DNA of 64,000 bases from Isoetes taiwanensis (Eukaryota; Streptophyta; Lycopodiopsida; Isoetales; Isoetaceae), in assembly GCA_021234155.1 (NCBI GenBank), contig JAJEKV010000010.1, forward strand, positions 19,627,418 through 19,691,417, in the 5' to 3' direction. A model generated the notes under the pieces. It did not search any database, was not told where the DNA came from, and was given only the letters and a program-made list of their open reading frames with translations. The stretch's first letter is position 1. Every line of letters starts with the position of its first letter. Position numbers and translations under genes: made by a program. Below, piece after piece: positions 12,102-49,000 of the stretch.

Positions 12102-13188
12102 TTATTCAAATAGGCTTAAGGCAACATGTTGTTGCCAGTACCTCTTTAAGTGAAGGATATTGAAAGGATTTGGCAGTTCCTGACCATCTGTGAGATCCTT
12201 GAGCCAATAAGACTCCTTGCCAGCCTCACCAATGATTTCATAGGGTCCTTCCCACAAATTTTCAAACTTCCCTGCAACTTTCTCTCTGGCCTTGTTCCAT
12301 TTCAGCACGAGTTCTTCTATCTTCATGGTACCTTGTAACCTGTGAGCAGCCTTGAATGCTGCCACATCCTTAGCCTTTTTCAGCAAGATTGCATTTTCAG
12401 CATCATACCTGTGCTCCTCAAGTTGCATCAACCTAATAAACCTGTCTTGCAAAGCATCTTCCATTTTGAGGTTAATAATATGTGCCATTCTTAGGGAAGG
12501 CAGTTTTAATTCTACAGGTAAGACATCCTCAATGCCATAAACCAAACTAAATGGGGTATGCTTAGTGGCATGCTTTATGGTAGTCCTGTAGGCCCATAAT
12601 GCATCAGTTAATCTCAAATGCCAGTCTTTCTTGGATATGCTTACTGTTTTTTGCAGAATTGACTTAAGTACCTTGTTTGTTGACTTTGCCTGACCATTTC
12701 CTTGGGGATAATATGCTGAACTCTTTGTGTGCTTGATCTTGAGGGTGCAGAGTAGCTGCTCAATCACTTCATTGACAAATTGTGAACCTCTATCTGATAT
12801 TAGCTTCAAGGGGATGCCAAATCTGGCACAGATATTTTGAAGGCCAATAGTAACCTGACCTAAGTATCTTTTTGGCAGTTGTATCTGCAGCAAAGTGACC
12901 TCCACATACACCCTCATGACAAGCTTTTAAGACCAATTCTGCCTCAAATTTGTCCACACACCTTAGCAAGACACCTTCGTTTACTCTGCGTAAAACATCA
13001 CCAATTAGCCTGAATTTTTTTACCTTGTCCTTGAATCTCCTGTTTTGGCTAGGGCTCTGATTCTTTGGCAGCTCTCCTCTTTCAAGGTACTCCCTAATTG
13101 CCTGTTGCCAATTCTCCTCCTCAAGTAGATTAATTGTAGACTCCATGTGAGTACCATCTAGATCCTCCAAGTCTTCATGCTTAAACAA
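12102..13188 (-). pseudogene. Pol: integrase, internally deleted
   Basis: The frame at 13188-12790 carries the zinc-binding N-terminus (ACHEGVCGGHFAADTTAKKI, LRSGYYWPS). It then breaks where the second half of the HHCC finger and the first catalytic Asp should be, so a deletion plus frameshift is likely near 12870-12900. The frame 12917-12102 resumes with the catalytic core (FGIPLKLISDRGSQFVNEV, second Asp) and YYPQGNGQAKSTNKV, where the catalytic Glu is replaced by Lys. The C-terminal part (KWNKAREKVAGKFENLWEGP, PNPFNILHLKRYWQQ) is typical of plant Ty3/gypsy integrases. With two of the three DDE acids missing, the enzyme cannot work. Confidence 0.88.
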
Positions 13189-13229
13189 AACATCAGTAAG
13201 ATAAGTGCTAGGATCTTTAGATTTGAGAG

Positions 13230-14547: not shown

Positions 14548-16075
14548 AGAAACTTACAAATGCTTCCCTCTCCTCTTCTTTGAACATGTCTCCTATATAT
14601 AAGACTCTATCTTCATTGTTTTTTCTTACCTTGATTTCCTTTACCTCTTTTTCAGAGCTGGCATTGATTACCAATATTGGGTAGAGTTGCTGAAGCTCCT
14701 CATCTTCCAGATCTTCCTCCTTGATAGCTCCCTCAGCCAGATGCTCCATTAGTACATCTCTGCATAGGGAATCTGCCTCAGAGTTAAGCTCTCTAGGTAT
14801 GTGCTGCATTTCCCAAGTTGTGAACTTTGCTAGTGCCTCCAATGCTTGATCTTTGAGTTTCATCATTTCTTCATGCTTTGCCTGATACTTCCCTTCAATC
14901 TGCCTGCATATGAGTTGTGAATCTCCAAAGATAACAAGGTTAGTAACACCCAAATGGTTAGCTTCTTGAAGACCTGCAATCAGTGCCTTATATTCTGCCA
15001 TGTTTGTTAGATCCTGATAGATTCTTCCTACTTTGGCTATCAATCTATTGTCCTTGTCTTTTATGATTGCAGCAGATGAAGCAATGCTTAGCCTTTTTGA
15101 TACACCCCCATCAAACCACATGTAAGCACTCACTTCCTTGAGCTCACCTTTGTGCACTTCCAAAGGTAGATTTTCTTTTACAGGATTTACTTGTAGGTTA
15201 TAGGGTACATCTCCTCCTTTCCTCTTAACAAAATACTCCCCAATTTGTCTGGGAATTAGCATCTCCTCTTGAATGAAGTGGTAAGACTCATACTCACCTA
15301 GTTTGTTGTAGAGTGTAACAATCCTTCTGCCATCCGAGATGGTGCATTCTCCTTTTGACCAAACTGGCCTTGCATCCATAGTTGACAGCCATCTTCTTCC
15401 TAATAATAGGTCATAAATTTCTGATCTTTCATTGGCTCCCTCAAATGCTACTACAACAAAGTTAGCAGCCACCTTGATTCCTTCAATATCAATTGCTACA
15501 TCACTTATCATGCCTACAGGATTTATTTTTGAGTTGGAGAAAGATTTTAGTATCATGGGGGCCTTTTTATCCACCTCCAATCCACTCAGCTTCATAATAT
15601 GATGTGGCATGACATTCAAGGGTGATCCCCCATCTAATAATACCTTGTTTAGGGTCTGACTTCCCACTTTTGCTGTGCAGGTGAAGGCACCAGGATCATG
15701 CTCTTCTTGTCTTAGCATCTGCTCAGCTATGTGGTTAGTAAAAACCACCTGCTCTTCTCTAGTGAGGTTTACCTGCTCTTTTTTGGACATATCTACAACC
15801 TTTTCTCTATAAGAAGGAGCAATTCTTAGAAAGGTCAATAGATCTACACTTACTTTGGCATTTTTGAGCAAATATTCAAACTCATCACTATCCTTCTTTA
15901 GAAATTTTTGGAAAGGAGGAGGAGGTACAACCTGATTATCAGTTTGCTTTAGTTTCTGCACCTCTTGTCCATGAGACTCGAGCTCTGCTTCTTTGCCTTT
16001 GGTATTTAGGGGTCCCCTTGTGTGCACAGCCATGATCTCCTCTTCTTTTTGAAAGCTTTCACCCTCAAAGTGCAA
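14513..16075 (-). CDS. Pol N-terminal part: protease plus upstream RNase H-like domain
   Basis: The frame is open for 520 residues. An aspartic protease lies at about 125-240, with active-site-like LLDGGSPLNVMP (D148; the usual DTG/DSG is DGG here) and LLLGRRWL. Then, unusually, an RNase H fold sits at about 316-440 before the reverse transcriptase. All four acidic landmarks are visible: D322 in MWFDGGVSK, E361 in MAEYKALIAGL, D385 in IFGDSQLI and D435 in NSEADSL. It resembles the additional (archaeal-type) RNase H of Tat-lineage elements, which in the well-known elements lies downstream of the reverse transcriptase. The frame ends at VFAWD-stop, just where the RT begins in another frame. Confidence 0.85.
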   Translation of the reverse strand: MHFEGESFQKEEEIMAVHTRGPLNTKGKEAELESHGQEVQKLKQTDNQVVPPPPFQKFLKKDSDEFEYLLKNAKVSVDLLTFLRIAPSYREKVVDMSKKEQVNLTREEQVVFTNHIAEQMLRQEEHDPGAFTCTAKVGSQTLNKVLLDGGSPLNVMPHHIMKLSGLEVDKKAPMILKSFSNSKINPVGMISDVAIDIEGIKVAANFVVVAFEGANERSEIYDLLLGRRWLSTMDARPVWSKGECTISDGRRIVTLYNKLGEYESYHFIQEEMLIPRQIGEYFVKRKGGDVPYNLQVNPVKENLPLEVHKGELKEVSAYMWFDGGVSKRLSIASSAAIIKDKDNRLIAKVGRIYQDLTNMAEYKALIAGLQEANHLGVTNLVIFGDSQLICRQIEGKYQAKHEEMMKLKDQALEALAKFTTWEMQHIPRELNSEADSLCRDVLMEHLAEGAIKEEDLEDEELQQLYPILVINASSEKEVKEIKVRKNNEDRVLYIGDMFKEEEREAFVSFFDTWSDVFAWD

Positions 16076-16174
16076 TGAATTGCTTTCTTCCTACAAATAT
16101 CTTATGGAAGCACTAGGCTTGGGAAACATCTTTCATCCTGCAAAAACTTGACAGATGTACTTGGCTCAACAGCC

Positions 16175-17227
16175 TTAGCCATATTCTTTAACACTACATT
16201 TATCTTTATAATGTCCTATAGCTTTGCAGAAAGTACAAAGAGGGCATTCCTTACCATAATGCCCCTTCTTACCACATTTGAGACATGTTCTATACCAACA
16301 ATAGTATGAGGAATGGGTGTTTCTGGTGCAATGAGCACATGCTGGGTAGATTCTCCTCTCTGGTTGGCTGGCCTTCATTTCCATAAGTTGTTTGGTCACT
16401 TCAGCCAAGGTCTCAGTGACTTTGTTGAGATCTGCTCTCATATCTGACTCAGAACAGTTTACATCATCAGTCTTAGTTTTTTTCTTCTCCTTTTGAATGG
16501 CATAGACAGGCACAGGGGCAGATCCTATGTATTCTTGGTCATAATCAGAGAAAAAAGGATCATTTGAAGCTTGCAGGTCATCAGGGAGGTAGGCCAACAT
16601 TTCAGATGCTTCAATGGATCTCGTGAAAGCCTTGTGTATAGTGCCAAAGCCTTCTTGCCTCTGTAGCTTTAGCATTTTTCTGTACACTCGAGGTCTGCTG
16701 CTTAATCCCCTGATAAAAGAAGCAACCAAATGTAAAGTGTGGTTAGGTACCTTGTGCACTTGGCACTTGGTGAGATAGCAATTGAACCTCTCAACATATT
16801 GGTGAATTGTTTCACCATTTTTGATGTGAAAGTTCTGTAGCTCAAAGACTAGATCTTGTGGCTCAAGAAGCTTTCCAAACCTGGCCAAGAATTTTTTGAC
16901 AATTTCCTCCCAAGTATTAGCACCATCACTAACCATATATTCTAACCAAGCTCTAACCTCCTCATTTTTAAAACATTTCTTAAATTCAGCAAACTTACTC
17001 CCCTTCTTGTAGCCACACTCTTGATAATACGCTTCAAAGGTTTTCAGAAAGTTATTGGCATTGATACTTGGATCAAAAGTGGGGACAGGGGTAGGAATAT
17101 TCAGCTCAAAATATGTGCAGGGCATGCTTGAACCATTAGGCAGTGTGACATGTGGCATTGATGATGATTCAGGGTTTTCTGGTAATTCAGTATGCTCAGC
17201 AGCATCAACAATTCTCCTGGGAGCCAT
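16175..17227 (-). CDS. Gag polyprotein of the Ty3/gypsy element
   Basis: The frame is intact at 350 residues from MAPRRIVDAAEHTEL, the first Met after the 5' LTR and primer site; the frame is also open upstream into the LTR. The capsid-like retrotransposon Gag region lies at about residues 50-200 (FLKTFEAYYQECGYKKGSKF, then WEEIVKKFLARFGKL, then LQNFHIKNGETIHQYVERFN). The C-terminus holds three Cys/His clusters: CAHCTRNTHSSYYC, then two canonical CX2CX4HX4C knuckles, CLKCGKKGHYGKEC and CTFCKAIGHYKDKC. The protein would package element RNA into particles in the cytoplasm. It ends in TAG or TGA just upstream of the pol frame, which is separate. Confidence 0.85.
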   Translation of the reverse strand: MAPRRIVDAAEHTELPENPESSSMPHVTLPNGSSMPCTYFELNIPTPVPTFDPSINANNFLKTFEAYYQECGYKKGSKFAEFKKCFKNEEVRAWLEYMVSDGANTWEEIVKKFLARFGKLLEPQDLVFELQNFHIKNGETIHQYVERFNCYLTKCQVHKVPNHTLHLVASFIRGLSSRPRVYRKMLKLQRQEGFGTIHKAFTRSIEASEMLAYLPDDLQASNDPFFSDYDQEYIGSAPVPVYAIQKEKKKTKTDDVNCSESDMRADLNKVTETLAEVTKQLMEMKASQPERRIYPACAHCTRNTHSSYYCWYRTCLKCGKKGHYGKECPLCTFCKAIGHYKDKCSVKEYG

Positions 17228-17251
17228 GAGTTCCAAGATCCAGGTGATGTG

Positions 17252-17269
17252 ATCTCGGTAGAACCTCCA
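17252..17269 (-). other. Candidate primer binding site
   Basis: On the minus strand the 5' LTR ends ...CTTCAACA. After the three bases TCT comes TGGAGGTTCTACCGAGAT. The TGG start and the position fit a tRNA 3'-end complement. I cannot name the tRNA with certainty. Confidence 0.55.
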
Positions 17270-17272
17270 AGA

Positions 17273-19779
17273 TGTTGAAGGTGTACCTGGCAAACCTTCA
17301 ACTCGGTGGTTGAGAACCTCCACGTTGCTTGAGGCAACCAATCTATGGCCAGATCCCTGCACAAAACAACTCAAACTAGCTTGTGAACCACTTGTCCCTA
17401 AACAAGAAAAAACTGTCTGCCAAAAATTATTTGCCAAATGAAAAGGGATGCTTGCTTAATGTTGGGAACACTTGCACTAGATGCTCAGGGGAAACCACAA
17501 AAAGATTACAGAAGTCAGTGGCAAAAGGTTGACCAGAGCTCGGTGAGAAACAGCGTCCTGACTGGGTCAATTTTTGGTCAATAACCCTGGCAGAGAGCTA
17601 AAATTTGCAGATGAAAATTCACGAGGATATTTTTTGAGTTTCTTTCTTTGAGACTCTTAAACTAACCTAGAAGACATGTGCATCATGTGGAGACAGCAAG
17701 AAATATGCAGTAGTGTATACAGATGCCATTTTTATGGACTTCTTTGTGACAGTCTGTAACAGAGTTAAAGAAAATGTTTTGAATGGTGGCTTAACAGGAC
17801 TTTTTAATCTTTGAGTTATGGATGCAGCCTATATGAGATGAAAACAGATTCCAGATGATTGAAAACTAGTATGAAATGATATTTGAGTAGACTTTTTTAG
17901 ATTTTTTTGAGGATTTTATGACTTGCAGTATTGAATAAGCACTTCTGGCTGTAGTTTAAGCTAAGGAAATACTCATACAAACCACAATTGTATCTCTTGT
18001 TGAGAAAGAGGCACTGCTACAGCATAAATTGAACCAGCAAGATTTGATCTTCAGGATTTGCAAACAAGATCTTCACCAACTTCAAATTTTCATTCAAAGG
18101 AGCCTTCAAGAATTACAATAAGAGAATTTTCCCGTAATTTGACACAGAGAAATTCGCAGGAAGAAAGAAACAAAGGTAATACATGTCTTCAAACGATAAT
18201 AAAGGACTTTATTGCATCAGATCTTCAAGAAACCTGACACAAGGAGGCAATGCAGGGCAGACAGAGGTCATTCCCAGCACAAGTATGCTGGATTAGATCG
18301 CTCAAAGCGCTGGGGTGCTCGAAAAAACTTTGAAACTTCAATGACCTCTTAAATCCGGCAATTTCCGGTCAGTTCTTGATAATACAGTTTGGTTTTTACC
18401 TCCTCTGCCCGTAAATGAGTTCTTGATCTGCAAGTCAATCAGTTGTGGTGTAATGCTAATGATTTCTTCTTCAAAGTGGAGTTCCCTTTTCGAATGATCC
18501 CCTTCATCGTGGCCTTGCCATTGTCTGGCATTAATAAATGAGTTTTTAACAACTTTTGGCGAGATTCTTGGCATTAAAGGGCTAAATCCGGACGGTTTAA
18601 TCATGATTTGGCCAGTTAGTGGGGCTAATTCTTTGGATCTTGCAATAATTTTTGGGTTCTTCATGGCAACGGATATATTCCACAGGCTTTTGGTGAAAAA
18701 TAGGCTTGAATCCAGGTGGCTAAATGCGGTTGGTCGGGGCATGACATGGTTTTTGGAGGGTATTTTGAGCCAAATATTAGTGCAACTAGGGTATGGCGCG
18801 CATCCCAAGAAACCCCAAAACTAGGGCTAGATGTGGTCAAAATAGGAATCTTTGACCATCATTTTGCATGATTTTTTACTGGCTTTCAGATAGAAAAAAC
18901 AAATTTTGAAAATAAGCAACTTCAATTTTGGGCCTTTTTTCATGGTGTATAAGGGGATGTGGCACATGTGAGATGACTAGGCAAATGCTGATGATGTGAC
19001 ATGGTGAGGTGGAAGGCAAGGTGTCAAAGAAATTTTCCCTAGGTAAAATCTTGATGAAGTGTGACAAGGTGTGAGTGACACGTGTTGGGTGAGTTGGTGA
19101 TGATGTGGATGATGTGTGCATGACCTTTGAAGGTGAGGTGGCACTAGATGTTCTTCGACTTAGTCAACTTTGGACCTTTAGGATTTGATCCTTAACCCAT
19201 ACTTTGGTCTTGAATTGATCATGTAATGGACTAGTGGAGCTTCTCTTCTCTTTCTTTTTCTTTTCCTAGAGAGAGAGTGTGCTTCTAATGACTTATCAAG
19301 TGCATGGTGATGGATCATGATGTGTGTGTGATGTATAAGGTGCACATGTGTGGAATGTGTGGTGTGTGAGATTTTGCCCTAGGGAAAAAACTTTGAGCCA
19401 TGGAAATGAGATGAATGGAATGAGGAATGGGTATGAGGGATGAATGTAGAGGTGAGCAATGCCTTCTTTAGCCAATAACTCTAAGGTAGTGTGAAAATCT
19501 CAAAAGTTGGCAAGATAACATACTTCTTTTGGGGTCTTCCAATCTTTGACTAGGGGTCTTCTCTTTGTGACTTGCTTTCCAACCATTGACTCAAGTCCTG
19601 CTCACTTTTGCTAACTTGAATGCTCCTTTGAACGTTCTCCATTGGTCTTCAACTTGGTGTGAGGATTTGTCTTCATACCTAAACAATGAGCTCCAAATAG
19701 AAATGCCTTGCAAGTGTGTCTCGATCTTTTTGTGTTTTCTTGTGAAGTTGCACTTGCATGCTGCCAGAAGGTGGCAGCA
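17273..19779 (-). repeat. 5' LTR of the Ty3/gypsy element
   Basis: It is 2,507 bp and is the partner of 9107-11578. Relative to it, this copy carries the additional segment ATCGTGGCCTTGCCATTGTC and on near 18508-18552. Transcription of the element would begin inside it on the minus strand. Confidence 0.93.
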
Positions 19780-19784
19780 CTCTG
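19780..19784. repeat. Target site duplication CTCTG, right
   Basis: It follows the LTR end GTGGCAGCA directly and matches 9102-9106. Confidence 0.9.
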
Positions 19785-19799
19785 GTGGCCCCAGAATGT

Positions 19800-20330
19800 G
19801 TTTTCATGGTTTCTGTTTTGTAGAAGTGAAGTGAAGTGTATTAAGCCTTTGGGAGGCCTCAAAGGCCTAAAAGACAACCAAAATTTTACACAATATCATA
19901 AAAGAGTAGATGAGTTTCAGAGTCCTCATCTAACTCATCGCTCTCACTCAACATATCTTCATCATCTAAGATACTATTTAATCTTCTCAAACAATTCTCT
20001 CTACATCTCAGTAATTCCAATAAGTATTCCCCAATCTTATCTCCTTCAATATTGAAGAAGGTCTGAAGATCTTCGGCGTGAACTCCATGTCGTGCCCTCA
20101 AAGAATGATATGCACTACAACGAAGCAATGTGTGATCTTCATCTTCTATTTGTTCTTCTCCACAAATCTTGCAATATCTCTCTGCCCTAGGCACAATACG
20201 CCCCCATCTCCCAGTTTCCACCCCCAGATGATGTGAACCTAGAGAGTGGGTTTGTTCAGGATTCATCACTCCATGGGTTGTTTGTTTTGTATTGTAGAAC
20301 TTAGTAGAAATGAGCAAAACTCTACAATTA
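19800..20330 (-). pseudogene. LINE 3' fragment (C-terminal zinc knuckle)
   Basis: The minus-strand frame 20317-19886 encodes ETGRWGRIVPRAERYCKICG and DEDHTLLRCSAYHSLRARHG, a CCHC knuckle as in the C-terminus of plant LINE ORF2 (compare the LINE at 7865-7960). An acidic tail (SESDELDEDSETH) follows. The 3' end reads, on the minus strand, AGGCCTCCCAAAGGCTTAAT followed by a short ACTTC repeat near 19835. It is severely 5'-truncated. Confidence 0.75.
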
Positions 20331-22648: not shown

Positions 22649-23235
22649 AATAAGATTAGGGGCATTTTAATAAATATCAGAAATATCGGGGTATTTTGAC
22701 AAATAAGCAAAAATACAGGGGCAATTTTATAATTTTCCCTATAATTTAATGTTGATCGGTCTGGGGGCAGACTATTTGTCGCATTAGCAACTTGTTAAAA
22801 ACTAGTTGGGCCAGCGTATTTAAGTTATTATACGATACAAGTCTATTGGTATTACAATTTTCACACTATATGCAATGTCTTCAACCAGACAGTAAAAATA
22901 GTTTGCCATAGACAACACGAGTGCCATAAACCACCATGTGGAGACGAATCATTCTGCAAAACTCGCCTTCATTACCTTGACTTTAAAATATATACATCAG
23001 AGACAAAGAGACAGTAGTTTGGAGATACAAGAAGAAATGACTAAAGCAGTTCAGCAAAGGTTTGGAAGAAAATTAAAAGACACTTAAGATGTTTCAGGGT
23101 CTCTTCATCTTTGTAGCGACAACATATTTTCTTTGAGCACTATCTCTGAATGAGAACATTCCTGCATAAAGAAAATTATCTGCATCGCTCGTTGCAAATA
23201 GTTGAACAAATGAAACTACTAATAAGATCACTAGG

Positions 23236-26326: not shown

Positions 26327-27844
26327 TTACAGCTCCTCATGGCTTTCATTGTCACTTTCTATATCCACACCCCAAACTGCAGCATGAATATTTGACAGTA
26401 GTATGTATGTTCCTGAATCTGTTGGATCTAGCTCTAAAGCATGCAAAGCAGCAAGACCTCCACGAACTACATCGACATGTGTTCTACACGAACCAAGAAG
26501 AGCTTTCCATGAAGTTGCACTAGCTTGTAAAGGTAAATTGTTAATAAAGGCCTCTGCACTATCCAAACATGAAGCCCGGCCAAGAAGATCAATGATGCAA
26601 TTAAAATGCTCCAAATTTTGAGATATACCATGATCTTGACTTATAGAAACAACTAAATGATAGCCTTCATCTGTCAATCCTGTATGGCTGCATGCTGATA
26701 AAATAGTCAGAAAAGTTACGTCATCAGCCAAAACACCTTCGACCTTCATTTGTTTAAGAAGGTCAAGACCTTTCTTAGCATGTCCATGCTGACAATAAAC
26801 CGTGATCAGTGCATTCCATGAAACCAGACTTCGAGATGACATTTTATCAAACACAGCATGGGCATCTACCAAGCTGCCACATTTTCCATACATATTGATC
26901 AAAACTGTATTAATGATGACATCATGATGAAATCCATACTTTTCAATAAGTTTGTGTATCTGCTTGCCTTCCGCTAGAGCTGCCTGAATGCTGCATCCTT
27001 CCAAAATGCTTACAAATGCAATCCTATCTGGTGTCAGCCCTTGTAGCTGCATTTGCTGAAAGAGTTGAAGAGCTTCCTTAGGGAGGCCCTGTTGTACATA
27101 CCCAGAGATCATCGCCATCTAGGAGACAACATTTCTTGAAGGCATCGTTCGAAATAACTGCAAAGCCTCATCAAGATGTCTCTGCTGAGCATAGCCAAAA
27201 AGAATGGCAGTAAAGGAGACAATATCTGGATTTGGCATTGCCTTAAAAAATTTAAGGGCTTTATTTACCTGACCATGTTGGATGCAACCAGTAATCAGAG
27301 AATTCCATGAAACAACATCAGGTTCAGGCATTTGCTGGAAAATGTCAAATGCTGAATCCAAGTAGCCCTGTTGGATATATGCTGCAAGCATAGAGTTCCA
27401 TGACACCACATCTCTACAAGGCATTTCCTGGAAAAACTGAAATGCTTGCTGGATTTCTCCGTTCTGAGTACAAGCCCGAAGCATCATGTTCCAGGAAAAA
27501 CAATTCCTCTTATCCATAGAATCAAATACAGCACGAGCTTCATGCAAAGCTCTGCATTTGCCATACATTTCAATTAGCAAGTTCCCTAGATATCTATCTT
27601 TTTCTAAGCCTTTATGAATAATTTGGTCATGAATCTGCTTACCTGTTGATAAATCACTTGCACTTTTACACTTCCGCAATAAAGTTGCAAATGTGTTGAT
27701 CTCTTCTGAACCCATGCCCCTGTTACCCTTATATAATTCTTGCATCTTGTTAGAGAAACCTCGTCCCTTACGGAAATTCTGCTGCTGCATAGGCCGCAAG
27801 AAGATTGTTGCAGCCGTTCTCACCGTACCATGCCAGAAGTTCAT
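26327..27844 (-). pseudogene. PLS-class PPR gene with in-frame stop
   Basis: A single intronless frame of 505 codons runs from MNFWHGTVRTAATIFLRP. It is broken only by TAG at 27121-27119. The upstream part (241 residues) has tandem PPR motifs such as LLIEMYGKCRALHEARAVFD, VVSWNSMLAAYIQQGYLDSA and VVSWNSLITGCIQHGQVNKA. The downstream part continues directly with MAMISGYVQQGLPKEALQLF and VLINMYGKCGSLVDAHAVFD. It ends in an E-like domain (TSWKALLGSCRTHVDV, LDPTDSGTYILLSNIHA) and lacks E+/DYW. The stop falls where the repeat register expects Trp (VVS-W-MAMISGY), so one TGG-to-TAG change explains it. PPR proteins bind organelle RNA for editing or processing; the N-terminus is basic and Phe/Arg-rich as in a targeting peptide. 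It could be a fresh pseudogene, a sequencing error, or translated by readthrough. Confidence 0.85.
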
Positions 27845-27949
27845 AAAGTCATTTTTCTGCGCAGTGTTAGGGTTCTTGCTATTTGTTTTTCAATTCTTCA
27901 GAATCTTCTTCTGGAGGATAATTATATGGTTTGATGTAAAATTCGTTTG

Positions 27950-36539: not shown

Positions 36540-38107
36540 GCCCTCTTGGATTCTTATTGCCGGAGTGGATTTTACTACCACGAGATGGATTTTTTGCTCA
36601 CACTTACAAAGGTATTTGTTTTTTAATGTTTCTTCAGTTAGCATAATGTTTTTTTTTACAAGGTATTGGTTTCCTGATTCTACAATGTAGTCTTTGCAAA
36701 ACCCTTTTTTTGTTTCCTTCCTAAGATTTGCTGCAGATTCAAGTTTAGGCCCTCTGATTGCTTCCAACTCTTGGATATTCCTGGCTGCCGGATTATTCAT
36801 AGCGTGCCAGCCTTTAGCTTCAATCAACAAACGGATTCTTATGCACACAACATGCGGATTATTCGCCCTTTTCCATGTCACTTGAGATCAATCAAGCGGT
36901 GGCCACAAGAATGCATTTATATTGTAGGTTTGGAACTTTAATCGAACCATAAGGTGAATCATGCATTACCTTTAAGCTAAAGATAGAGCATCCAAAATCA
37001 TATGGATTGATAAACAATGGTGTCATTGTGAAAGAGAAATAGTTGTAGCGGAAGTAACAATATGTAGCATAATAACAGGAGGTTTTCTTTGTGTTGCAAA
37101 CTTTATGACTTTTAGAATAGTGGGATCAATCTGCTCTATCTTTATGGTAACTTTTACTTATGTTCTATTTGTTTTATTGTGATCAAATGCAAAAGCTACA
37201 TGTGATGAAAGCCTCAAATAAATTCTAGTTTTTTCTGGTTTGAATTCTAAATTTTTGTCACAAGGGGGGGGTGGCGTCCCTAAGGCCCCGAAGGGGCTAA
37301 AAAAATTTTTTTGCAACACAAACCATTAACATCTAACATATAAAAATTAAATTCCCCAACACATAACAACCATTGACATTAACAACCAACACATAACTAC
37401 CATTGACATTAATTAACACAACCATTGGGTCCAACACATTTAAATTAAAATCCCCCTTAAACCCCCTTTGGTTTGGGTGCATATTCACACGGGGGGTGAC
37501 GTAGGGCAACGAGAGCTGTTGGATAGGCATATTCACCCCTTATTCCTTAATCTATACCGTACGTAAAGTTCCTCGTTTGTGGTTTGTGAAGATACTATTA
37601 TTTTTCAATGGAAATAGATACTAAGTATTACACGTCTTGCTAAATGGATTTCATTTTTTCAAAAAGTGGGGTAGTACTATGAAATTTCAAAATTTTGACC
37701 CTCGGGGGACCTAACTAGGTCCATAAAGAACTTCTGAACTTCAAACTTTAAGGAATTATTTCTCGAAAATTCTACCATAGAATTTTCTAATTCTTCTTGT
37801 GATAGATTTCTCATATCATGATTTACAAGATGGAAGAATTAGAATTCCTAGAAAAAATTATTTTTGCAAAATAATGTGAGAAATGCTAAAGACTTTGAGA
37901 ATAAACTTGAACTCTTTGAATTCGGCTCCACATTATATTTGGTAATAGAAGCTTTTATATTTTTCATAATTTTTCCTTATATGTACACTCATGGAGGACA
38001 ACATATTGTGAGAGTGTAGAGAAATTCTTTATCTCGGAGCTATAATAGAATTTCAAAAAAAGTGTACGAATGAACCCATTTGGGTTCATCAAGGGATAAC
38101 TCTAGTG
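36540..38107 (+). other. Repeat-derived AT-rich region ending TAGTG|TTAA (copy C terminus)
   Basis: No gene is present. The right end reads GGGATAACTCTAGTG followed by TTAA at 38108-38111, with a subterminal palindrome GAACCCATTTGGGTTC. This is the same terminal design as 3052-4966. The segment at about 37420-37500 is homologous in reverse to 53340-53440 (both contain GGTTTGGGTGCATATT or close variants). The left end of this copy is not defined. Confidence 0.45.
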
Positions 38108-39064
38108 TTAAGGAAAACACAAATGGCAGCTGTTAAAAGCCTGCAACCTCGGTCGACCATACGAGAACCAGATCCTTATTCAAGAATATGCACTAGAGCA
38201 AAGCGCCATTGCCAAAACAGAATGCCGTCATCAGAGTTGGGGCACTATAGCCGTAGAACTGAGCCGCCAGAATTTACCCCAAGCAAAGTGTTCACGTAAC
38301 CATAACTTCCCTTTTGTTGCAATTCTGCTATGTCACATGTGCCTCCACAGTAGAATCGCAACAAAAGGGAAGTTCTTGTATTCAAAAATGCAAGTTATTA
38401 TTCTCTGCTTTGCCAATATCTAATGCATATGGTGTTATGCATATTTAGGGTACATTCTTGAGATGGAAATAAGGGGACGCGCAGAATGCTGGCTAAGCCC
38501 ATGGAAAGCAAGGTAAATACTCTTGAATGCTGGTAAACACTCCGCAATGCAGAATAAACACTCCGGATGGACAGAGGAAATGCAGTCGCTAAGCAAAACT
38601 TTTAGGAAGACTACCAAAATGCCCCTATGAGTTTATGTAATTACTAAAATGCTCCTATGATTTTCAAAATTACCAAAATGCTTTTGACTCAAATAAATAT
38701 ACAAATAAGCCCCTACACACCAAACTTAATTACCAAAATACCTCTACACACCAAAGATAATTACCAAAATACTAGTTTTGGTCAATCTACACCAAATTTA
38801 ATTGCCTAAATGCCCCGTACATCAAAATTAATTGCCAAAATGCCTCTATACAGTCTTGTTACGACACTTACAAGGAGACAGTATTGGCTATAGTTTTAGT
38901 GCATGATGGCGCATGTTACCACCAGCCACATGCAGTCCTCCTGGACGTCCAAAACCTAGATGCATATGTACAGGAAAAGAAAATGTAGAGAAGAGGAACA
39001 ACATTATGGAAGGTGTAATGCAAGGGACAGAATGCGCACATTGTTGTAGGGCTGCAATTCAGTG

Positions 39065-40414
39065 ATGATTATGACTTCTGTAAGGCCCAGTGCTGGAAAT
39101 CACAGAGTCAGACGTGGACCAAGTCTTACAGCGTCTTCCCAATGGGAAAATGCCAGACCTGGATGGTATGCAAGCAGAATTGCTTAAGTGGACAGGGTCG
39201 TCCATAGTACCAGTGCTGACCACCTTGTTCGACAAGGCATTACAGGAAGGCTTCCCACTACAGTGGATCAATAGCAGAGTTGTTTCCATCTATAAGGCAG
39301 GTGACCCGCACTGCCCAGCCAATTACCAAACAATAATGGTCAGTTCGGTATTTGCAAAACTGCTCGCGGAGATTCTCGAGCAGCAGTTGACGGGTTGGGC
39401 AGAGGCAACAGAGGTGCGGGCCCTCACCCAGGCAGAATTCAGACCCCGGCACTCGACCATTGACCACATCTTCACGTTGCAGACTCTGGTTGGAGACAGC
39501 AGGAACTGCCGGCAAGACCCATATTGTTGCTTCGTGGATTTTGCAGTGCCTCGGAAAAAATCATGGGCAAGATTGCAACAGCTCAGGGTTCCTGTAGATT
39601 TGCAGAATGCAGTGTACAGACTATATGAGAGATGCTCGGGCCAGTTGCAGCCGACAAACCAACCATTTGATAGTAGTATCGGGATTCTCAGGGATGCCCT
39701 CTCTTCCCAACATTATTTGAGCTTTACATTGATCAGTTGGAGAGCTGACTTGCTGATAATGGGGGCGACGAAGCTCACCTTCTGCACCAGATCATCGGGT
39801 AGTTAATATATGCTGATGATGTGGACCTCCTAGCTCGTACCAGCAGACATACAGTGCCATCTCGATGCCCTGGACATATTCTGCCAAACGATTGATATGC
39901 GTGTCAACCTGGCCAAGACTAAGGTGGTCCTCATATCATCCTCACGTCAACCGAGGATCTCCTCCTTTAGTTACCGAGGGCAGAATGTGGAAGTGGCACC
40001 TGTATACAAATATTTGGAAGTGGAGTTTCCTTCTACTATACACTGGGACACATCCATACAGCTATGAGTGACGGCAGGCTGGAAGGCACTATATGCAATG
40101 TAAAACAATAGTCATAGAGCAGAGTTGTATGATTGGGCCCGTCAGTCGCACCTGTTCAAGATCGGGGGCAGAAAACCTCTCAAATGGGAGTCATTGAGGA
40201 TGAATCTCATACGCTTCAAAGCTGCCCAGTATATGATCAAATCCGGACGCGCTATGCTAAGTTGGTCAGACCTGGCCAGCCGCTACATGTGACATTGAGC
40301 ACGGCTTCCGTACGGATGCTCGGATCATACTTCAGGAGGTCATGGACATGCGAGATCAACTATGTCCTCGGGCACACACTTGACATGTATATCTCTATAT
40401 ATACACAATTATAA
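39065..40414 (+). pseudogene. LINE fragment (reverse transcriptase to knuckle)
   Basis: The frame 39090-39806 encodes the RT fingers/palm: DQVLQRLPNGKMPDLDGMQA, RVVSIYKAGDPHCPANYQTI, LTQAEFRPRHSTIDHIFTLQ. The catalytic region follows in another frame near 39808-39850 (YADDVDLLA). A C-terminal piece near 40190-40260 (EDESHTLQSCPVYDQIRTRY) is a decayed knuckle. It is related to the LINE at 4971-8092 and retains the stretch deleted there. Frameshifts and stops make it inactive. Confidence 0.8.
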
Positions 40415-40929: not shown

Positions 40930-42060
40930 CTTGCAGTAGGGGGGTCGGATGAAGGTGGGGCCCATGCCATTGGATTCCTATGAAAATCTTCATAGGATCT
41001 AAGGGAATCTATATAGAATTGTGAGGAATCTAGGTGAATCTTGGGACAATCTTTGAGGATCTTGAGAATCTCGAGAGAATTTATGGAAACCTAGGGAATC
41101 TTCATAGAATATTTGAGAATCTAGGAGAACCTTGATAGGATCTTCGAGAATCTAAGAGAATCTGTATAGAATCTTTTAGAATTTAGAGGAATCTTAATAG
41201 AATTTTTTAGATTTTAGGCGATTCTTGATGGAATTTTGGAGGACCTAAGGAATGTTCATAAGATCTAAGGGAATATTAAGGAATCTTCATAAAATCTTTA
41301 GAAATCTAGGGGAATCTTGACGTAATCTTTGAGAACCTAGAGGAATTTTCATAGAATGTAAAGGAATCCAAGAGAAACTACATAGAATCATGGGGAATCT
41401 AGGTGAATCTTGGGGCAACCTTTAGAAATCTAGGGGAATCTCGAGAGGATCTAAGAGAATCGAAGGGAATCTTCATAGAATATTTGAGAATCTATGGGAA
41501 TATTCTTAGGCTCTTACAAAATCTAGGAGAATCTTGGGGAAGTTATGTGAATCTTGAGAGGATCTTTGAGAATCTAGAGGAATCTTAGTGGAATCTTTGG
41601 GATTCTAAGGGGAATCTTGATAGAAACTTGAAGAATCTAAGGAAATCTTCGTAGGATCTAAAGGAATCTTCGTAGAATCTAAAGGAATCTTCGTAAAATC
41701 TTTAGTAATCGAGGGGAATCCTGATGAAATGTTGAAGAACCTAAAGGAATCTAAGGGAACTGAAGAGAATCTACATAGAATTGTGGGAATCTAGGTGAAT
41801 CTTGAGACAATCTTTGGGAATCTAGAGGTATCTCAAGGGAACCTTAGGAAATCTATGAGAATCTCGGGGAATCTTTATAAAATCTTTGAGAATATAGGGG
41901 AGCCTAGGGGTTTTTTACAAATTTTGAATGAATCTAGAAGAATCTACGTAGAAGCGTGAGGAATTTATGAGCATCTTAGAATAATCTTAGAGAATCTAGA
42001 GAAATCTTTGTAGAGTCTTAAAAATCTAAAGGCATCTTCCACCATCCACATCGTAGGGTC
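40930..42060 (+). repeat. GAATCT-rich minisatellite, about 1.1 kb
   Basis: Dozens of degenerate units built on GGAATCTAGGGGAATCTTGA, TAGAATCTTTGAGAATCTA and similar strings, spaced roughly 15-35 bp apart. No coding potential. The motif GGAATCT also recurs in the direct repeats at 30180-30680. Confidence 0.85.
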
Positions 42061-42380
42061 GGTCTCATATAGTCCTTCATAGTACAAACACTTGTATATA
42101 TATATTTCATGATGATGTCTACATGTATAGTTTGACAGCATTCTTATTACTGCCACAGTGTTTCCCTCGAAAACCCTTCGGGGCGGGGGTTTTTTTTATC
42201 CCGGACAGTAATAAGTTTGTGGCGCTCCTTCTGGGTCCCATAGGCCGATTGGTCTCAGTGGACGATAAAAATCATTCTTTCTTTATTGAATTCAAACTTC
42301 TATTCTTGAGGCATTTAGTGTAGATTGAGTAGGATCTATATATAATAATAAAGGCGTTTTATGATAGTCTGTGCGCAATC

Positions 42381-42641
42381 TTACGCGTTGAATTTTCTCA
42401 ACTTATTTTCATCCCTTGATTTTGGCTTTTTGGCGGTTTTCTTTATACGATCGTTCTGCCTCTCCTCTTCCCACATCCGGGCCTCCTCCCTTTCCAGTTC
42501 CTGTTCCTGAATGCCGGAATGGGGTTCTACGATCTCCTCAAGATCCTGTGCAATAAACAGAAATGGCATCATTGCTCCGCAGAATACAAGTTTTAGATTT
42601 CTACTAACCTCTCGGTCAGCAAGACCAATCGCTCTTTGCAA
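42381..42641 (-). pseudogene. Captured exon pair of unidentified gene
   Basis: On the minus strand FALQRAIGLADRE ends at GAG followed by GTTAGT. After a short intron ending TTTATTGCACAG, the frame resumes with DLEEIVEPHSGIQEQELERE, EARMWEEERQNDRIKKTAKK and PKSRDENKLRKFNA-stop. The splice signals are good and the last exon is a highly charged C-terminus. I do not recognise the parent gene. It lies just inside the Helitron 5' end, in opposite orientation to the other cargo. Confidence 0.45.
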
Positions 42642-42812
42642 GGCAAATATGCATGAGGATAGGGCAATGTGATCTATTTTTTAGGCAAATGCTTATATGC
42701 CATGATCCCAGTTTCGGATCTGGGTTGAATTGGTGCCTTTGTAAAATGCTGGGAGATCGAGTTTCTTCTTAAACGTCGGACTTGATTTTGTTTTCTTTTA
42801 GCTGCCTACATA

Positions 42813-43419
42813 ATGTTTCGCCGTTCACGAGACCTGAAGGGAGATAGCACATCCTCCTTTTCGACGGAGATATCAGTCACTGGCTTATCCCATAGCATTG
42901 CTGATAGTGATGGGCAGCTTGATGAAGGCACCATTCAAGATGTGGAGTCTTCTCTCCGAGATGCTATATCCTTAAATGACGAGGTAATTTTTCTTAACAT
43001 GTTATCAGTTATTGTCTTGCTTCTTAACTCCGATTGTATTTCTTGCCCACTTCCTACTGTTATTCTAGATCTATTGTCCTGAACATGGTAGATAAACTTT
43101 ATATTCTCATTTATATGTCCTGCATATATCATAAAGTTTGTAGTTGCTCTGATAACAATATGATGCTTTTTAATACAGGAAGCACGTGCACTTCTTGGGA
43201 GGCTTGAATATCAAAGAGGAAATGCATATGCAGCTTTACAAGTTTTAAATGGTATTGACATGAATATGGTTGTTCTTGGTCTGGGAATGCCAAGTTCTCG
43301 AAAGAAACGTCATCACAAGAGCAAGTCTAAGTCAGACAGGCCTGCACTAGCAACTGGCCTTCTTTTTGAAGCCGTATATTTCAAAGCGAAGTCTTTACAG
43401 AAGCTAGGTCGATTAACGG
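42813..43419 (+). pseudogene. NPG1-like (calmodulin-binding TPR protein) exons 1-2
   Basis: Exon 42813-42983 starts MFRRSRDLKGDSTSSF and ends QDVESSLRDAISLNDE before GTAATT. Exon 43179-43419, after TTTTTAATACAG, continues EARALLGRLEYQRGNAYAAL, then LQVLNGIDMNM, then ATGLLFEAVYFKAKSLQKLG and RLT before GTAGGG. This matches the N-terminus of the NO POLLEN GERMINATION 1 / NPG-related family, where the first TPR follows the conserved SLREALSLN-EEARALLGRLEYQRGN region. The family's remaining roughly 500 residues of TPRs are absent; the next in-phase exon comes from an LRR gene. Both visible exons are open and the splice sites intact. It may be transcribed as part of a chimera. Confidence 0.8.
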
Positions 43420-43788
43420 GTAGGGATAATAGCTTTGTTTTTATGTCAATGCCATGCTGAATAAATCAAGTTGATGTCATTATAGCATAAGCATGTTTCC
43501 CATTTGTATGAAGATATTATTTCAGCACCCTCTAGGACACTCCAAAGAATGTGGATCTCCCATGTTTTTCTGCCGGTTCTTTCCTCATGCAACCTTATTT
43601 TTGCTGAAAGACCGATTTGGTGCTGAGTGGACGTATTTCTGTAACCTATTCCACTATAGTTTCTGTAGAATTCTATGCTATTCTCTGTTTATGAAGGTTC
43701 AAAGGTTTACATTCAAAGATTTTCCTGAGGTTTACATTCATATTACATTTCTCACGGAGCTAATACTGTTTTTTATGCTTGTCTACAG

Positions 43789-45296
43789 CTGAACTTCCAC
43801 TGCAGATAGAAGTTTTAGTCAATCTTCAAAGACTGGTAAGACCAAAAACCAATTTGATGCAGTGCAGTAACATGGCGAAAGCAAAAGGGAATAGCTCTTT
43901 TTTATTAGTCTCTTATTTTCCTTGATGAACATGGTTGTAGATACTTGTAGAAAATTGTTTGACGCGGCTTCCTTCCACCTTGGGCAGGCTTCGATCCCTT
44001 AAAGTCCTTACACTCGATGGGAACAGACTATCAGAGATCCCTGATGAAGGTCACTTTCTAGGCAAAACAGATTTTATATTCTGTTTTGAATCAGTACATG
44101 TTTTACATTTGAAACCAAGTTGTGCTTCTAAGTCTACGTTAAATGTTATCTTCATATCATCTGTATCTGAGGTTAGCGAAATAATCCTTATTCATTATTT
44201 ACTTATATATATGAATGTCTTCATATTCTTGCTTAAAACTACTATTTCCAATTTATAACAGATTATGCAGCATGGCAACATTTGCTATGGTTTAAATGTC
44301 ATAAATCACATTCAAACAATGTTCTTATTGCTACTGACTTGATGCGATTGGGATTGCTTGTCCGGCTTGAGCGGTTGTCTATTGCAAAAACTCTCTTTTC
44401 GCTTTTACCATCTACTATTGGGAGCTTGCACGATTGCAAGTAAATCGTATTTTAAGCACTGTAATGCATCGTTCACGAGTTTTCTATTCACGAAACAAGG
44501 TTATTTAACATGATATTAACTTTTCTCTTCTTCTTGTTTTAAAACCACCGGGCTTCTTAATATCGTTGATAATCAAATAAAACATCTTTCGCATCTTTGG
44601 GAAGTGTGGGTCCCTTGAAGAACTTGTTGAAAATGGTAAGCTTCATGCTTTTATTTTTCTTTTGTTGTGGAGTGTGTTTGCAAATTGTAGAGTGACAAAT
44701 CATTGTTTCTAAAATAGAGTATTGCCAAGCTAGAAGCGGATAAGAAATGTCCGCCATGCAAAAATCGGCTCTTTCTTTTTTTGATCTTTTGGGAACCTCG
44801 GTTCCATTCATAATCGTTTTTCAAACATAATGGAGGCAATTATTTGAGTACATATATAACTACTTTCTTTATAGGCAATTTGATAGAGGAGCTTCCCAAG
44901 ACCCGAGCAACTTAAGCAAACTGAAAACACTTGAATTATCGAAAACAAAATTGTGCGGTATGGATGCTACTTTATATCTTAAGAATGGCGATGCTTGGTT
45001 TTAATAAAATTGTTGTTCTTCAAGCGACTTCTGCATCACTTTTAATGAGACCTTAAGGTGTTACAAACTTTATCTTTGCATGGGAACCCATTCACACTTG
45101 AACAACTTCAACGGGTATTGTAAAGTGCGGTTTTTTACGCATTAAGTACACTCGATTCGATATGTTTATGACGAATTTTTAGATGGATAACTATGAAGCG
45201 TATGAAGGGCGTCGGAGAAAAAAGTTTGACAAGCAAATAGATACAAAGGTGATGACAAACTCACGATTATTTGATGAAGGCATTGATAGAAAATAG
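43789..45296 (+). pseudogene. LRR-protein exons (AT5G07910-type), 3' half decayed
   Basis: Exon 43789-43835 (AELPLQIEVLVNLQRL) and exon 43941-44049 (ILVENCLTRLPSTLGRLRSL, KVLTLDGNRLSEIPDE) have intact AG/GT borders and join in phase. Downstream blocks are recognisable but damaged: GLLVRLERLSIAKTLFSLLP near 44355-44420, LLNIVDNQIKHLSHLW near 44550 with a frameshift before SLEELVEN, NLIEELPKT near 44880, and DLKVLQTLSLHGNPFTLEQL near 45050. The last exon at 45183-45296 is MDNYEAYEGRRRKKFDKQID, then TKVMTNSRLFDEGIDRK-stop. From memory the order matches the plant cytosolic LRR protein family that includes Arabidopsis AT5G07910, with its typical KKFDKQIDSNVM tail. The first exons of that gene are missing and replaced by the NPG exons. 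Confidence 0.75.
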
Positions 45297-45930
45297 TTTG
45301 GTTGAATGCAAGTTGAGATTTATTTCATAAAAGTGTGATGATCATCATGGAACGGATCATCACTATACAAACATCTGTGTGGGCATGATTCCGTTTTTCG
45401 GTGCTTCCGATTAAGTAAAAGAGCTCATGTCTCGACTTTGGTTAACTATTATATACGTTGTATCGGGGCCAAGGTTGATTCGTAAAACTTGTGTTTTGTA
45501 CCCTCGGTGGCTGACATTTATTACGGTGACTTCAAAGACACTTGCATATCCAATAGTAAAAGAACAAAGGCTTTGTTTGTAAAAAAGAATGTTTTCTCAA
45601 ACATGGATTTTTTTCAAATTTCAGTGACCAAGATCAGGGAATTAGCCATTTACAAGTTGCTATAAGAGCTAAGGTTCTATGCCATATATGAACCTTGACT
45701 AGAGGGTTAAACAAGTTGTTATTATAGAACGTTCCTGGCACCTTCTAAGTAAGCAACATAAAAATTTTGTCTATCTATGTTGCTTCTTAGTTTCTATATA
45801 GGGCCTCACATTCTATCATTTGTGGATAAAGCATTGCGCATTATTTATGGCCATTCAAAATTCTGGGATATTGAATGCACAGATTGCTCCATTAAACTTA
45901 GGAGCTTTTGGCTATCAACTTATGTTTTGT

Positions 45931-46420
45931 GATAATGCTTTCATTATATTGTTATCGTGATCGTGAACAAAGGCAAACTAATAGAGCAAATGAAGGGATT
46001 CGATGTGTGAAAGAATATATGATGTTTATCTTACAATGCCTTTGTTTTCATTGCGATGGACCTTCATTTGGCACATGGTATCTTTTTCATATGACCAGGA
46101 TCCATAAGGACAAAAATCCTTGCCTTTACATGCTTCCATTTGTGGTAATGCCTTCACTATAGTGTTGTCATGATCGTAAACCAAGGCAAGAACTAATAGA
46201 GCAAATGAAGGATTCAATATCTGTGAAAGAATGTATGATATTATCTTACAATGCCTTCGTTTTAGGGTTCCTTTTTTTTTTGTATATGGTCACTATTTTA
46301 GTTTTAAGGTTGCTTATTTCGTATGAAAGGCATAGAAGAGAGGAGTTTGACAAGCAAATAGATACAAATGTGATGACAAACTCACGATTATTTGACGGAG
46401 GCATCATTGATAGAAAATAG
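45931..46420 (+). repeat. Duplicated block including a second LRR last exon
   Basis: About 115 bp at 45931-46046 recur at about 46146-46263 (shared TAGAGCAAATGAAG, GTGAAAGAAT, TCTTACAATGCCTT). At 46323-46420 the LRR last exon appears again as RHRREEFDKQIDTNVM, then TNSRLFDGG, stop. This points to internal segmental duplication within the Helitron cargo. Confidence 0.7.
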
Positions 46421-47019
46421 TTTGGTTGAATGCAAGTTCAAATTTATTTCATAAGAGTGTAATGATGGTCATGGAGCAAATCCCCATTATACACACGTGT
46501 GCAGTATAGGTCAAGAATTAGCACATAATGGAGAGCACAAACAGGGGATAATGTCGGGTAATATCCGGTGCAATAATATTGTCTTTTAACAATGATTTCA
46601 CAATTTATCCTCAATGATTTCTCTCAAGGTTTTACAATGTTTAATGCACTTTCAAAAGCATATAACCTATGCATCGTACCTAAAAATGTGGCAATACATG
46701 CTCAACAATTATATTTGATTGAACATTTTTTTTGCTTACATTGGAGGATAATGCACCTTCAGGAACAAAAAAATACAAGGTTACATTAAACTTTAAATCA
46801 TGCATACGACTTGAACAAATCTCTAAACCAAGTAACCTAAGTGACTTACCATGTCTCCTTTGCGCATTTAAGTTATAACACACAAAATATTCGCAAGATT
46901 ACACATTTGTTAACATTTGTTCCACATTTAGGATCAGATTAAATCCACCATTTAGCACAAACCTTCTCAAGTGGATTCTACCATTTTGTATTAGTTTTTT
47001 AAATTATATCCGACGAAAA

Positions 47020-47047
47020 GCCCAGCAACGCTGGGCACTTTTTCTAG
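47020..47047 (+). other. Helitron 3' terminal hairpin and CTAG end
   Basis: The 7-bp perfect stem with a 3-nt loop ends 7 nt before CTAG. In Helitrons this structure signals termination of rolling-circle transfer. Confidence 0.9.
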
Positions 47048-47289
47048 TAAGTATATAAGGGCATTTTGATAATTAAGTTTGGTGTGTAAGGGGTATTTTG
47101 TTTGTTAAGTTTGGTGTGTAGGGTATTTTGGTAATTAAGTTTGGTGTATAATGGCAAATTGGTAATTTATTTGTATGTGTATCTTATACAGTGTATTTAT
47201 TTGAACCAGGAGCATTTTGAAACTCATAGGGGCATTTTGGTAATTACATAAACTCATAGGGGTATTTTGGTAGTTTTCCCAACTTTTTT

Positions 47290-49000
47290 TACTAACATTC
47301 TTTGTTTCAAACAATACCACGTGTACAACGCTACTGGCAGACGCCGCAAAATGCTTCCTAAGTGTTTTTTAATGTCTTTGAAAAATCTGTCTTAATCCGA
47401 GCATAGATGATTTTATGCACATATTTCAATCCATGCATTGGTCTAATGGGTCCATTAATGAGGGTAAAATGCAATTGGAAGAGATGCGGCATTAGTAGAG
47501 GCAAATCTTAGAGGGATCTATTTGCGAGCAAGGAATTTCTTAAGGGTATCAATCCAACTTGAAATTACTATTGGGTAGCTCCGATGACAGTTCCTTACTG
47601 GCAGCAGCTTTTGGCGCATGGTTTAGAAGAGCAAGCAAAGCATGAAAGAAAGTCAAATACTGTATATTATACTATACTTCTACCTTGAGATTTTGTTATT
47701 ATTGTAGACAAACTACATTCCTCGTTTTAAATTGTATATATGATCAAAGATGCTTTTATTTCAATGAACTTGATTGGCTTAATTGCAAGTTTGGACTTGT
47801 TGTGTAGCCAGTCTTATTAAGAACTCGAAAGCAATCAGAGTAAGATGGCCTTGACCTATTGGCATTTAATGCTGGTCTGAGTTATGAAAAAGAAACAACA
47901 GGCTTTGTGCAAGAGTTATGAAAAAGGAGCAAGATTTTTCGTGTTGTTTATTGTTCTGTCTGGCTCAACTTCAAGCAGCCAACGTGTTTGAGGGCTTGAA
48001 AGCCATCAAAACAAGTCTTGATCTATGGGCACTCCATGCTGATATGATGTTACAAAAGAAGATTTATGCGAAGATTGAGACATTCTGTAATCATTGTTGT
48101 TATTGAGCACTCCAAAGCAATCAGAGTAGATGGTCTTGAGCTGTAGTAATTACAACCCAATGGTTACATTAGGTGGACTTTTGTCCTACCATTAAATATT
48201 GGATTGGACATGTCCTGCAATTTTGAGATGTCCTATTCCTTTCCAGATGAAAAAAGAATTTTGTATGCCTTTGATTTTATGAAATTTCTGAACCTGTTCT
48301 TCTATCCGTTGCTAAAGGGCAAAACATTTTGTTCCTCCAAGGAATAAAGGTTATATAAGCAAAAACGTCCAAAACCTATTATCGCGTGTTTTCAAGACTC
48401 AACTTCTGACCTAAAATAACCATAAGTGTGATTACTGTTTCATACATTGTAAGAAATAGAAGACTGGCTAAAACAAGTTCGAGTATAAGCACAAGGCAGG
48501 CGTTTCTGTGCCGCCCTTTTCAGCTTGTTCCTATTTCTTCATTACAAAATGTTAAGTCGCGGCCTAGTTCAGATGAAGATAACACACATGCAAGCATGTT
48601 AGCAGATATCTGGTCTACTGTTTACAAAAAGTAGATGACTAGGCACGTTTCCTTAAACTTCAAACCTGTGCTGGAGCTACATGAAAAGTGAAGCTTATTA
48701 AGGGTGCAGTAAAGGACTAAACAATTTCCTTAGCACTGTGAACACATGGAAAATCTGATAATTCACAAACAGAGCGGTCTTAAATTTAGTCTTGGAACAT
48801 CTTCATTTGTCATATTTTCTAAAATCTTAGAAACTGCAGTGTTGATGATTCTGCTGTCCTAAGTTTGGCCTGCTAAATTTCAAATTTTGTCATATGGTTA
48901 ACATGGCAACCAAAGTTAGTCTTTAATAACAAGCGTTTGCATAAACTTTTTTTTTATATGCTAGGAAATGTATCATCTGATGTCATTCTTTGAATCATGA
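47290..49000. other. Intergenic / 3' flank of TMEM258 gene
   Basis: No supported gene. Short plus frames at 47918 and 48428 lack family resemblance. The 3' untranslated region of the gene at 49033-50116 (minus) probably occupies part of 48700-49032. Confidence 0.35.

Follow-up and report, generated by a model that had tools for sequence, protein, structure and literature searches.

A non-autonomous Helitron of Isoetes taiwanensis carries NPG and PIRL7-like LRR gene pieces in one predicted reading frame, most likely as a non-functional passenger

The 64,000-nucleotide stretch of the Isoetes taiwanensis genome analysed here (contig JAJEKV010000010.1, positions 19,627,418 to 19,691,417 of the forward strand; hereafter the window) contains a gene-carrying Helitron at positions 42335-47047. 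Within it lie pieces of two host genes, one of the NPG family and the other encoding a leucine-rich repeat (LRR) protein that resembles PIRL7 (plant intracellular Ras-group-related LRR protein 7, a name taken from the protein-search matches), separated by a short filler of other origin. The parts of the element are listed below; here and in the text a caret marks a splice site or an element border.

42335..47047, plus strand: non-autonomous gene-carrying Helitron, between A (42334) and T (47048)
42335..42528, plus strand: 5'-terminal family module; 39 of 40 non-window matches overlap 42336-42528, at 79-96% identity
42634..43526, plus strand: captured NPG segment (upstream non-coding sequence, exons 1-2 and the start of intron 2)
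42813..42983, plus strand: NPG exon 1, coding from ATG
43179..43419, plus strand: NPG exon 2, 241 nt, with a phase-1 end at donor GTAGGG
43525..43705, plus strand: filler from another source within the composite intron, 181 bp
43712..46253, plus strand: captured PIRL7-like LRR segment with 3' flank; left limit 43712-43720
43789..43835, plus strand: LRR exon A, entered in phase 1 at acceptor CTACAG^CT; encodes AELPLQIEVLVNLQRL
43941..44049, plus strand: LRR exon B, the last cleanly reading exon; encodes ILVENCLTRLPSTLGRLRSLKVLTLDGNRLSEIPDE
44290..45500, plus strand: CAG/CTG-altered stretch over LRR exons C-G, a probable unpolished long-read consensus
46320..46404, plus strand: partial repeat of the region around the last LRR exon, 88% identical to 45199-45283
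46851..47047, plus strand: 3'-terminal family module, 84-93% identical to L003-L007; similarity ends at or shortly past CTAG
47020..47036, plus strand: 3' hairpin with 7-bp stem and 3-nt loop, 7 nt before CTAG

The ends of the element have the features of a Helitron, namely a 5' TC, a 3' CTRR, insertion between A and T and a short G+C-rich hairpin near the 3' end. Read in the window sequence, the 5' terminus is A^TCTATATATAATAATAAAGG at 42334^42335, and the 3' terminus is the hairpin GCCCAGC-AAC-GCTGGGC followed by ACTTTTTCTAG^T, with the border at 47047^47048. On reading the flanks of 42335-47047 no target-site duplication was seen, none of the 19 inverted-repeat pairs in 42000-47400 links both element ends, and no frame within the element, read on both strands, exceeds 105 codons. 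Both borders can be taken as true element ends because other loci share similarity up to them and then have differing flanks. In comparisons run with the flanks included, similarity to other loci begins at 42331-42334, and on the other side seven loci are similar up to 47048-47072 and then diverge; the plus-strand loci L002, L003 and L007 equal the window through CTAG^T and differ beyond it (for the 3' flank, the sequences of these three and of L001, which is the window itself, were compared, together with the BLAST borders of all loci). An earlier reading of this DNA from sequence alone (the sequence-only reading) had called exact termini, A^TC at one end and the hairpin and CTAG^T at the other, with which both the sequence and the copies with different flanks agree. 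A 99-codon minus-strand frame at 42381-42680, running across the 5' module, was dropped, its best family match (HMG_box, E 0.04) lying below the cut-off.

Searches of the whole assembly (1,658,258,908 bases in 1110 contigs) assign the element to what appears to be a large non-autonomous Helitron family. A search for further copies of the 3' end, which had been proposed as a check, returned 985 exact copies of the terminal 29-mer, including its terminal T (489 + 496), and none of the reversed control. The last 148 bp gave six full-length matches at 93% or more, window included (40 of 700 candidates scored). For the 5' module, the best 40 of 614 candidates were scored, yielding 41 matches including the window, of which 32 begin at query base 1 and three at base 2; this query opened at the element's second base and so carries no border information, the border being taken from the flank-inclusive comparison. 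Eight loci were fetched around 3'-end matches: five also carry the 5' end (L010, L011, L012, L013 and L015), and at L009, L014 and L016 it was not seen within the stretch fetched. The sister Helitrons L010, L011 and L013 are 7.4 kb long and 93-98% identical to one another, L012 measures 2.6 kb and L015 5.0 kb, and L013 starts with ATAT as against ATCT. The window's gene cargo occurs in none of these five sisters with both ends. Just left of the Helitron, at 42124-42271, lies a repeat of about 150 bp that recurs at 75-81% identity at L009, L014 (the same place as L008) and L016 (the same place as L005), at two of these three places near another Helitron 3' end. Next to the right end lies a minisatellite (47056-47194) whose unit is about 30 bp long, and arrays that resemble it by eye are found at 38612-38844, on the other strand, and 22658-22732.

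The first piece of cargo comprises NPG exons 1 and 2, the latter bounded by acceptor TACAG^GAA and phase-1 donor G^GTAGGG. Of 3820 candidate proteins, 972 match the two exons at E<=0.001 (best E 9.3e-28), with 47-55% identity to NPG proteins among the best 120 of these matches. The Pfam signals over these exons, for TPR and TerB, all fall below threshold, and no solved structure matches them by sequence. The sequence-only reading had named the source a pollen calmodulin-binding TPR protein; the NPG family assignment stands, and the label is one that fits Arabidopsis NPG1 rather than the whole family. Isoetes taiwanensis makes no pollen. In Arabidopsis, NPG proteins form the link between PI4K-alpha1 and its membrane anchor, like animal TTC7 (partial text of PMC8774046). 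The element resembles such NPG/TTC7-like scaffold genes in that the segment to which its captured exons belong shares 97.7% identity with a host NPG gene, and differs from them in stopping after the first 137 of some 700 residues, short of a full-length TPR protein.

A DNA query of 42780-44060 found 47 genomic matches including the window (39 of 39 candidates scored). The host NPG gene, on another contig (C1063), matches the window at the above identity over 42654-43526, and its locus goes on through another three open segments, which match NPG proteins to residue 701-702, so that it looks like a complete NPG gene. Similarity to it begins just 159 bp upstream of its ATG. A piece at C1054 (L019) is 99.0% identical to window 42634-43116, with no more of the NPG segment there, and 20 bp at its upstream side are common to the window and C1054 and missing from the C1063 gene. 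Because the C1054 piece is closer and shares these 20 bp, the NPG piece appears to have been copied more than once, with C1063 as a near donor. Shorter fragments of NPG exon 2 are present at C1048 (two places), C1049 and C1067.

The LRR piece has protein homology at a best E of 2.6e-49 with 57% identity, and exons A and B score above the Pfam cut-offs for LRR_4, LRR_8 and LRR_1. Like PIRL7-like short LRR genes, it gives an ordered match, here over most of residues 56-259 of a 262-residue Selaginella protein (the exon D part being weak); unlike them, it has no first two coding exons and has the last exon region twice. From about 43712-43720 to about 45500 the closest loci are C1059 (91%) and two C1089 loci (89.9% and 88.8%), with matches extending to about 46253, and the upstream coding exons missing from the element are recognisable at these donor loci, most clearly in C1059. 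When LRR donors were sought in the genome at the protein level, other LRR genes overwhelmed the result (best 39% identity), and it was not used. The parental-gene search that had been suggested therefore ended with near donors for both pieces (C1063 for NPG, C1059 and C1089 for LRR), and the objection that the exons might have no homology to either family is met by the E values given for each. Window 44023-46962 is also present at three C919 loci (L059, L060 and L061), with no NPG match within the 4-6 kb fetched there. Because these loci carry the LRR cassette beside other sequence, it seems to have moved without NPG. By eye, the left side of the cassette at the C919 loci is joined to a PPR-like gene piece (L059 2376-5368); all three copies lie on one contig, and two of them are 99.3% alike over 5.4 kb, in opposite orientation and about 10 kb apart.

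The filler between the two gene pieces is 96-97% identical to sequences at C1032 and C1035 and 80% to C933, with shorter partial matches elsewhere. At the NPG-filler joint there is a 2-bp GC microhomology, GC being present in both parents at the break, and at the filler-LRR joint an exact 12-nt repeat, GGTTTACATTCA, occurs once at the joint and once slightly further along, at the start of LRR similarity (by eye). Both joints fit microhomology or template-switch joining as a possible mechanism. NPG and LRR thus do not meet directly at their joint, the unrelated 181-bp third piece lying within the composite intron.

Across this intron, the four joined exons (NPG 1-2 and LRR A-B) form 567 nt and 189 residues free of stops, the last codon ending at 44048, and the predicted junction reads ...SLQKLGRLT-AELPLQIEVL..., with splice dinucleotides intact at the joint and at LRR exons A and B. 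This reproduces the arrangement first noted, in which the NPG exons end in phase 1 at G^GTAGGG and an LRR exon follows in the same phase at CTACAG^CT. In the C1063 gene, NPG exon 3 begins AG^AA, completing the codon G^AA (E), and at C1059 LRR exon 2 ends CTT G^GTATGT and exon A begins AG^CC. Because both native introns are thus phase 1, the joint merely inherits its phase match from them. Given how frequent each intron phase ordinarily is, about a third or more of randomly paired introns should agree in this way; the match is an easy coincidence and no sign of selection.

Fragments of at least two host loci, NPG and LRR, are thus combined in one element, and among the 47 genomic matches only the window joins the two. 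The same exon order at a locus without Helitron ends, the observation that would have spoken most directly against the sequence-only reading, does not occur among them. A protein search with the 189-residue fusion gave 37 matches (E<=1e-10, 446 candidates), none covering more than 70% of it, which is about the NPG half (137/189); this negative is weak because host proteins seem poorly represented (no NPG match exceeds 55% among the 120 listed). The statement that exon shuffling has joined two proteins holds at the DNA level only, the search with the fusion having found no spanning protein. Relative to the donors, the NPG exons have three nonsynonymous and four synonymous differences, and LRR exons A and B one and two.

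Downstream of exon B the LRR part does not read cleanly: as assembled, the exon C acceptor is lost and there are indels in exons C-F. The changes follow a marked trinucleotide pattern. Compared with the three LRR loci (C1059 and the two at C1089), CAG/CTG sites are altered at 38/42 positions in 44290-45490 and at 2/18 in 43722-44290 (Fisher P 4e-9), against 199/1166 and 129/598 for other trinucleotides, the last figure including a 53-bp gap at 44287 and a mismatched left edge near the capture joint. With the three C919 copies as reference, CAG/CTG is altered at 0/9 sites in 44023-44290, where 2/273 columns differ; at 36/40 in 44290-45500, where 67/86 differing columns lie within 2 bp of CAG/CTG; and at 9/19 in 45500-46962, where the corresponding figure is 16/100, and this last stretch appears to be genuinely diverged as well. 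Window 44501-45500 contains three CAG/CTG as against about 20 expected. In 44290-45500 the changes are mainly CAG to CGG, CGA or CGT and CTG to CCG or C-G, with others at single sites. LRR exons C, D, E, F and G have 0, 2, 1, 1 and 3 differing columns, respectively, away from CAG/CTG, among them one indel column (exon E).

The same signature is seen in the sister Helitron L011, which lacks the window's gene cargo (CAG/CTG altered 128/180, other trinucleotides 780/7001), with 0/52 and 3/55 in L010 and L013, and in the C919 copy L060 (45/68), with 0/23 in each of L059 and L061. The deamination-like change CAG>CAA occurs nine times in L011 and four times in L060. The assembly was made from nanopore reads polished with racon and pilon (partial text of PMC8566536), and plant methylation likely lowers base-calling accuracy, a point on which the available text of PMC9749173 says no more. 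The pattern suggests systematic miscalls at CHG-methylated cytosines where short-read polishing failed, so that the CAG/CTG changes, the LRR frameshifts and the lost splice sites are probably assembly errors. On the strength of the signature in the window, L011 and L060, real decay was set aside as the cause of the LRR indels. Because the altered stretch covers exons C-G, the fusion frame beyond exon B is not decidable from the assembly; the four exons that carry the finding all lie outside 44290-45500. Apparent frameshifts in transposons and captured genes of this assembly should not be taken as decay without checking, and this side finding may matter more widely. Elsewhere in the window, CAG/CTG falls below 0.45 of expectation in the 1-kb stretches 19001-20000 (8), 37001-38000 (5) and 41001-42000 (3), the last being an AATCT-rich degenerate tandem array.

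The ends, donor loci, junctions, phases and 189-codon open frame are observed, and the explanation that very probably accounts for them is stepwise capture, with a joint that is in frame by chance. The Helitron would have taken up, in steps, an NPG fragment, the short filler and a PIRL7-like LRR fragment, both gene pieces in its own direction and broken within introns, and the pieces would have been joined by repair-type or strand-switch events during rolling-circle replication. We infer both the mobilisation, by the Rep/helicase of an autonomous relative, and the order of the captures. Removal of the composite phase-1 intron would place LRR exon A in frame behind NPG exon 2, and the fusion is most likely a non-functional passenger; no role can be predicted for a 137-residue NPG fragment combined with the greater part of an LRR domain. 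Three observations weigh against this explanation. C1063 appears to be a near rather than an exact NPG source, the C1054 piece being closer; the LRR donor loci are themselves imperfect in the assembly, C1059 carrying one A too many in its last exon and the C1089 copies being broken at further points; and the pooled differences from the donors, four nonsynonymous to six synonymous, depart from neutrality (binomial P 0.018) and would fit some constraint. The P value is no evidence for selection on the fusion because the count includes the donors' own constrained branches. The same 4:6 ratio would suit a working chimeric gene, transcribed, spliced over the composite intron and read through the LRR part with its lesions being assembly errors, as would the in-frame joint, the intact splice dinucleotides and the fact that every one of the 10 differing columns in exon C, like every indel column of exons C, D and F, has a CAG/CTG no more than 2 bp away. 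Such a gene is nevertheless very unlikely: no protein match spans the fusion, the NPG promoter was probably left behind given where similarity to C1063 starts, an indel column in exon E and three substitutions in exon G have no CAG/CTG close by, and the joined arrangement is single-copy among the 47 matches. Slightly less probable again is a working NPG-LRR fusion of some 340 residues, transcribed from the element and spliced across the composite intron, its frame open as far as the LRR stop and the frameshifts being base-calling errors at methylated CAG/CTG.

The LRR part might instead be a pseudogene whose frameshifts and missing splice sites reflect real decay, its capture having preceded that of NPG by a long time. 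The lost exon C acceptor and the indels as assembled would follow from this, as would its 88.8-91% identity to the LRR loci, compared with 97.7% for the NPG piece, the 53-bp gap, which is present relative to all three LRR loci, and the off-CAG/CTG position of most differences from the C919 copies in 45500-46962. Decay would not be expected to concentrate changes at CAG/CTG as in 44290-45490, to set in sharply near 44290, just downstream of a stretch nearly identical to the C919 copies (44023-44290), or to produce changes that are mostly not C-to-T, and we regard it as improbable, though the least so of the alternatives. CAG and CTG are CHG methylation contexts, and the changes could also be real CHG-targeted mutation on silenced transposon copies. 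The signature does recur in three separate comparisons (LRR loci, L011 and C919 copies), and a minority of changes look like deamination of 5-methylcytosine, including the CAG>CAA changes in L011 and CTG>TTG, CTG>TTA, CAG>CAA and CAG>TAG among the nine changed sites in 45500-46962. The commonest products in 44290-45500 and L011, however, are CGG, CCG, CGA, CGT and deletions, where deamination would give TAG, TTG and CAA; in L011 CTG>CCG (30) far exceeds the complementary CAG>CGG, which is outside its eight commonest changes, and because such strand bias is hard to get from mutation, and with an assembly that is nanopore-based (PMC8566536, in part), this is the most improbable of the explanations considered.

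Stepwise Helitron capture makes the element a new example of well-known gene capture, in a lycophyte. The 42335-47047 element shows neither the terminal inverted repeats nor the target duplications that characterise Pack-MULEs and CACTA elements; Pack-MULEs and CACTA elements with captured exons are alike in being mobile elements that combine host-gene exons. This likeness, and the established occurrence of maize Helitrons with captured, alternatively spliced exons, are drawn from partial texts (PMC13317346 for both; PMC4528327 for the latter). The maize elements Hel1-331, -332 and -333 are likewise non-autonomous, have TC/CTRR ends between A and T and carry exons from unrelated genes, which splicing can join; unlike the lycophyte element, known here from DNA alone, they are transcribed and alternatively spliced (PMC4528327, in part). 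A limited literature search found no earlier report of Helitrons in Isoetes, and the word Helitron is absent from the main text of PMC8566536 as far as it was available. The capture is well documented in that both near donors, two joints and the intron phases are visible in one genome, and its host, an early-diverging vascular plant, bears on whether such shuffling yields genes outside flowering plants.

Scans of the window with Rfam (gathering thresholds) and for tRNAs returned nothing. Its other recognisable features are a PPR gene at 26327-27889 on the minus strand, which a single in-frame stop divides into two long frames and which has an E motif in the scanned part; the remains of a long terminal repeat (LTR) retrotransposon at 12102-17455, also on the minus strand, with gag, reverse transcriptase and a weak integrase core; a plus-strand frame at 39084-39806 that is reverse transcriptase-like by eye, with no Pfam match; and a LINE-type element at 5221-7993 on the plus strand, with a reverse transcriptase and an endonuclease match just below the cut-off.

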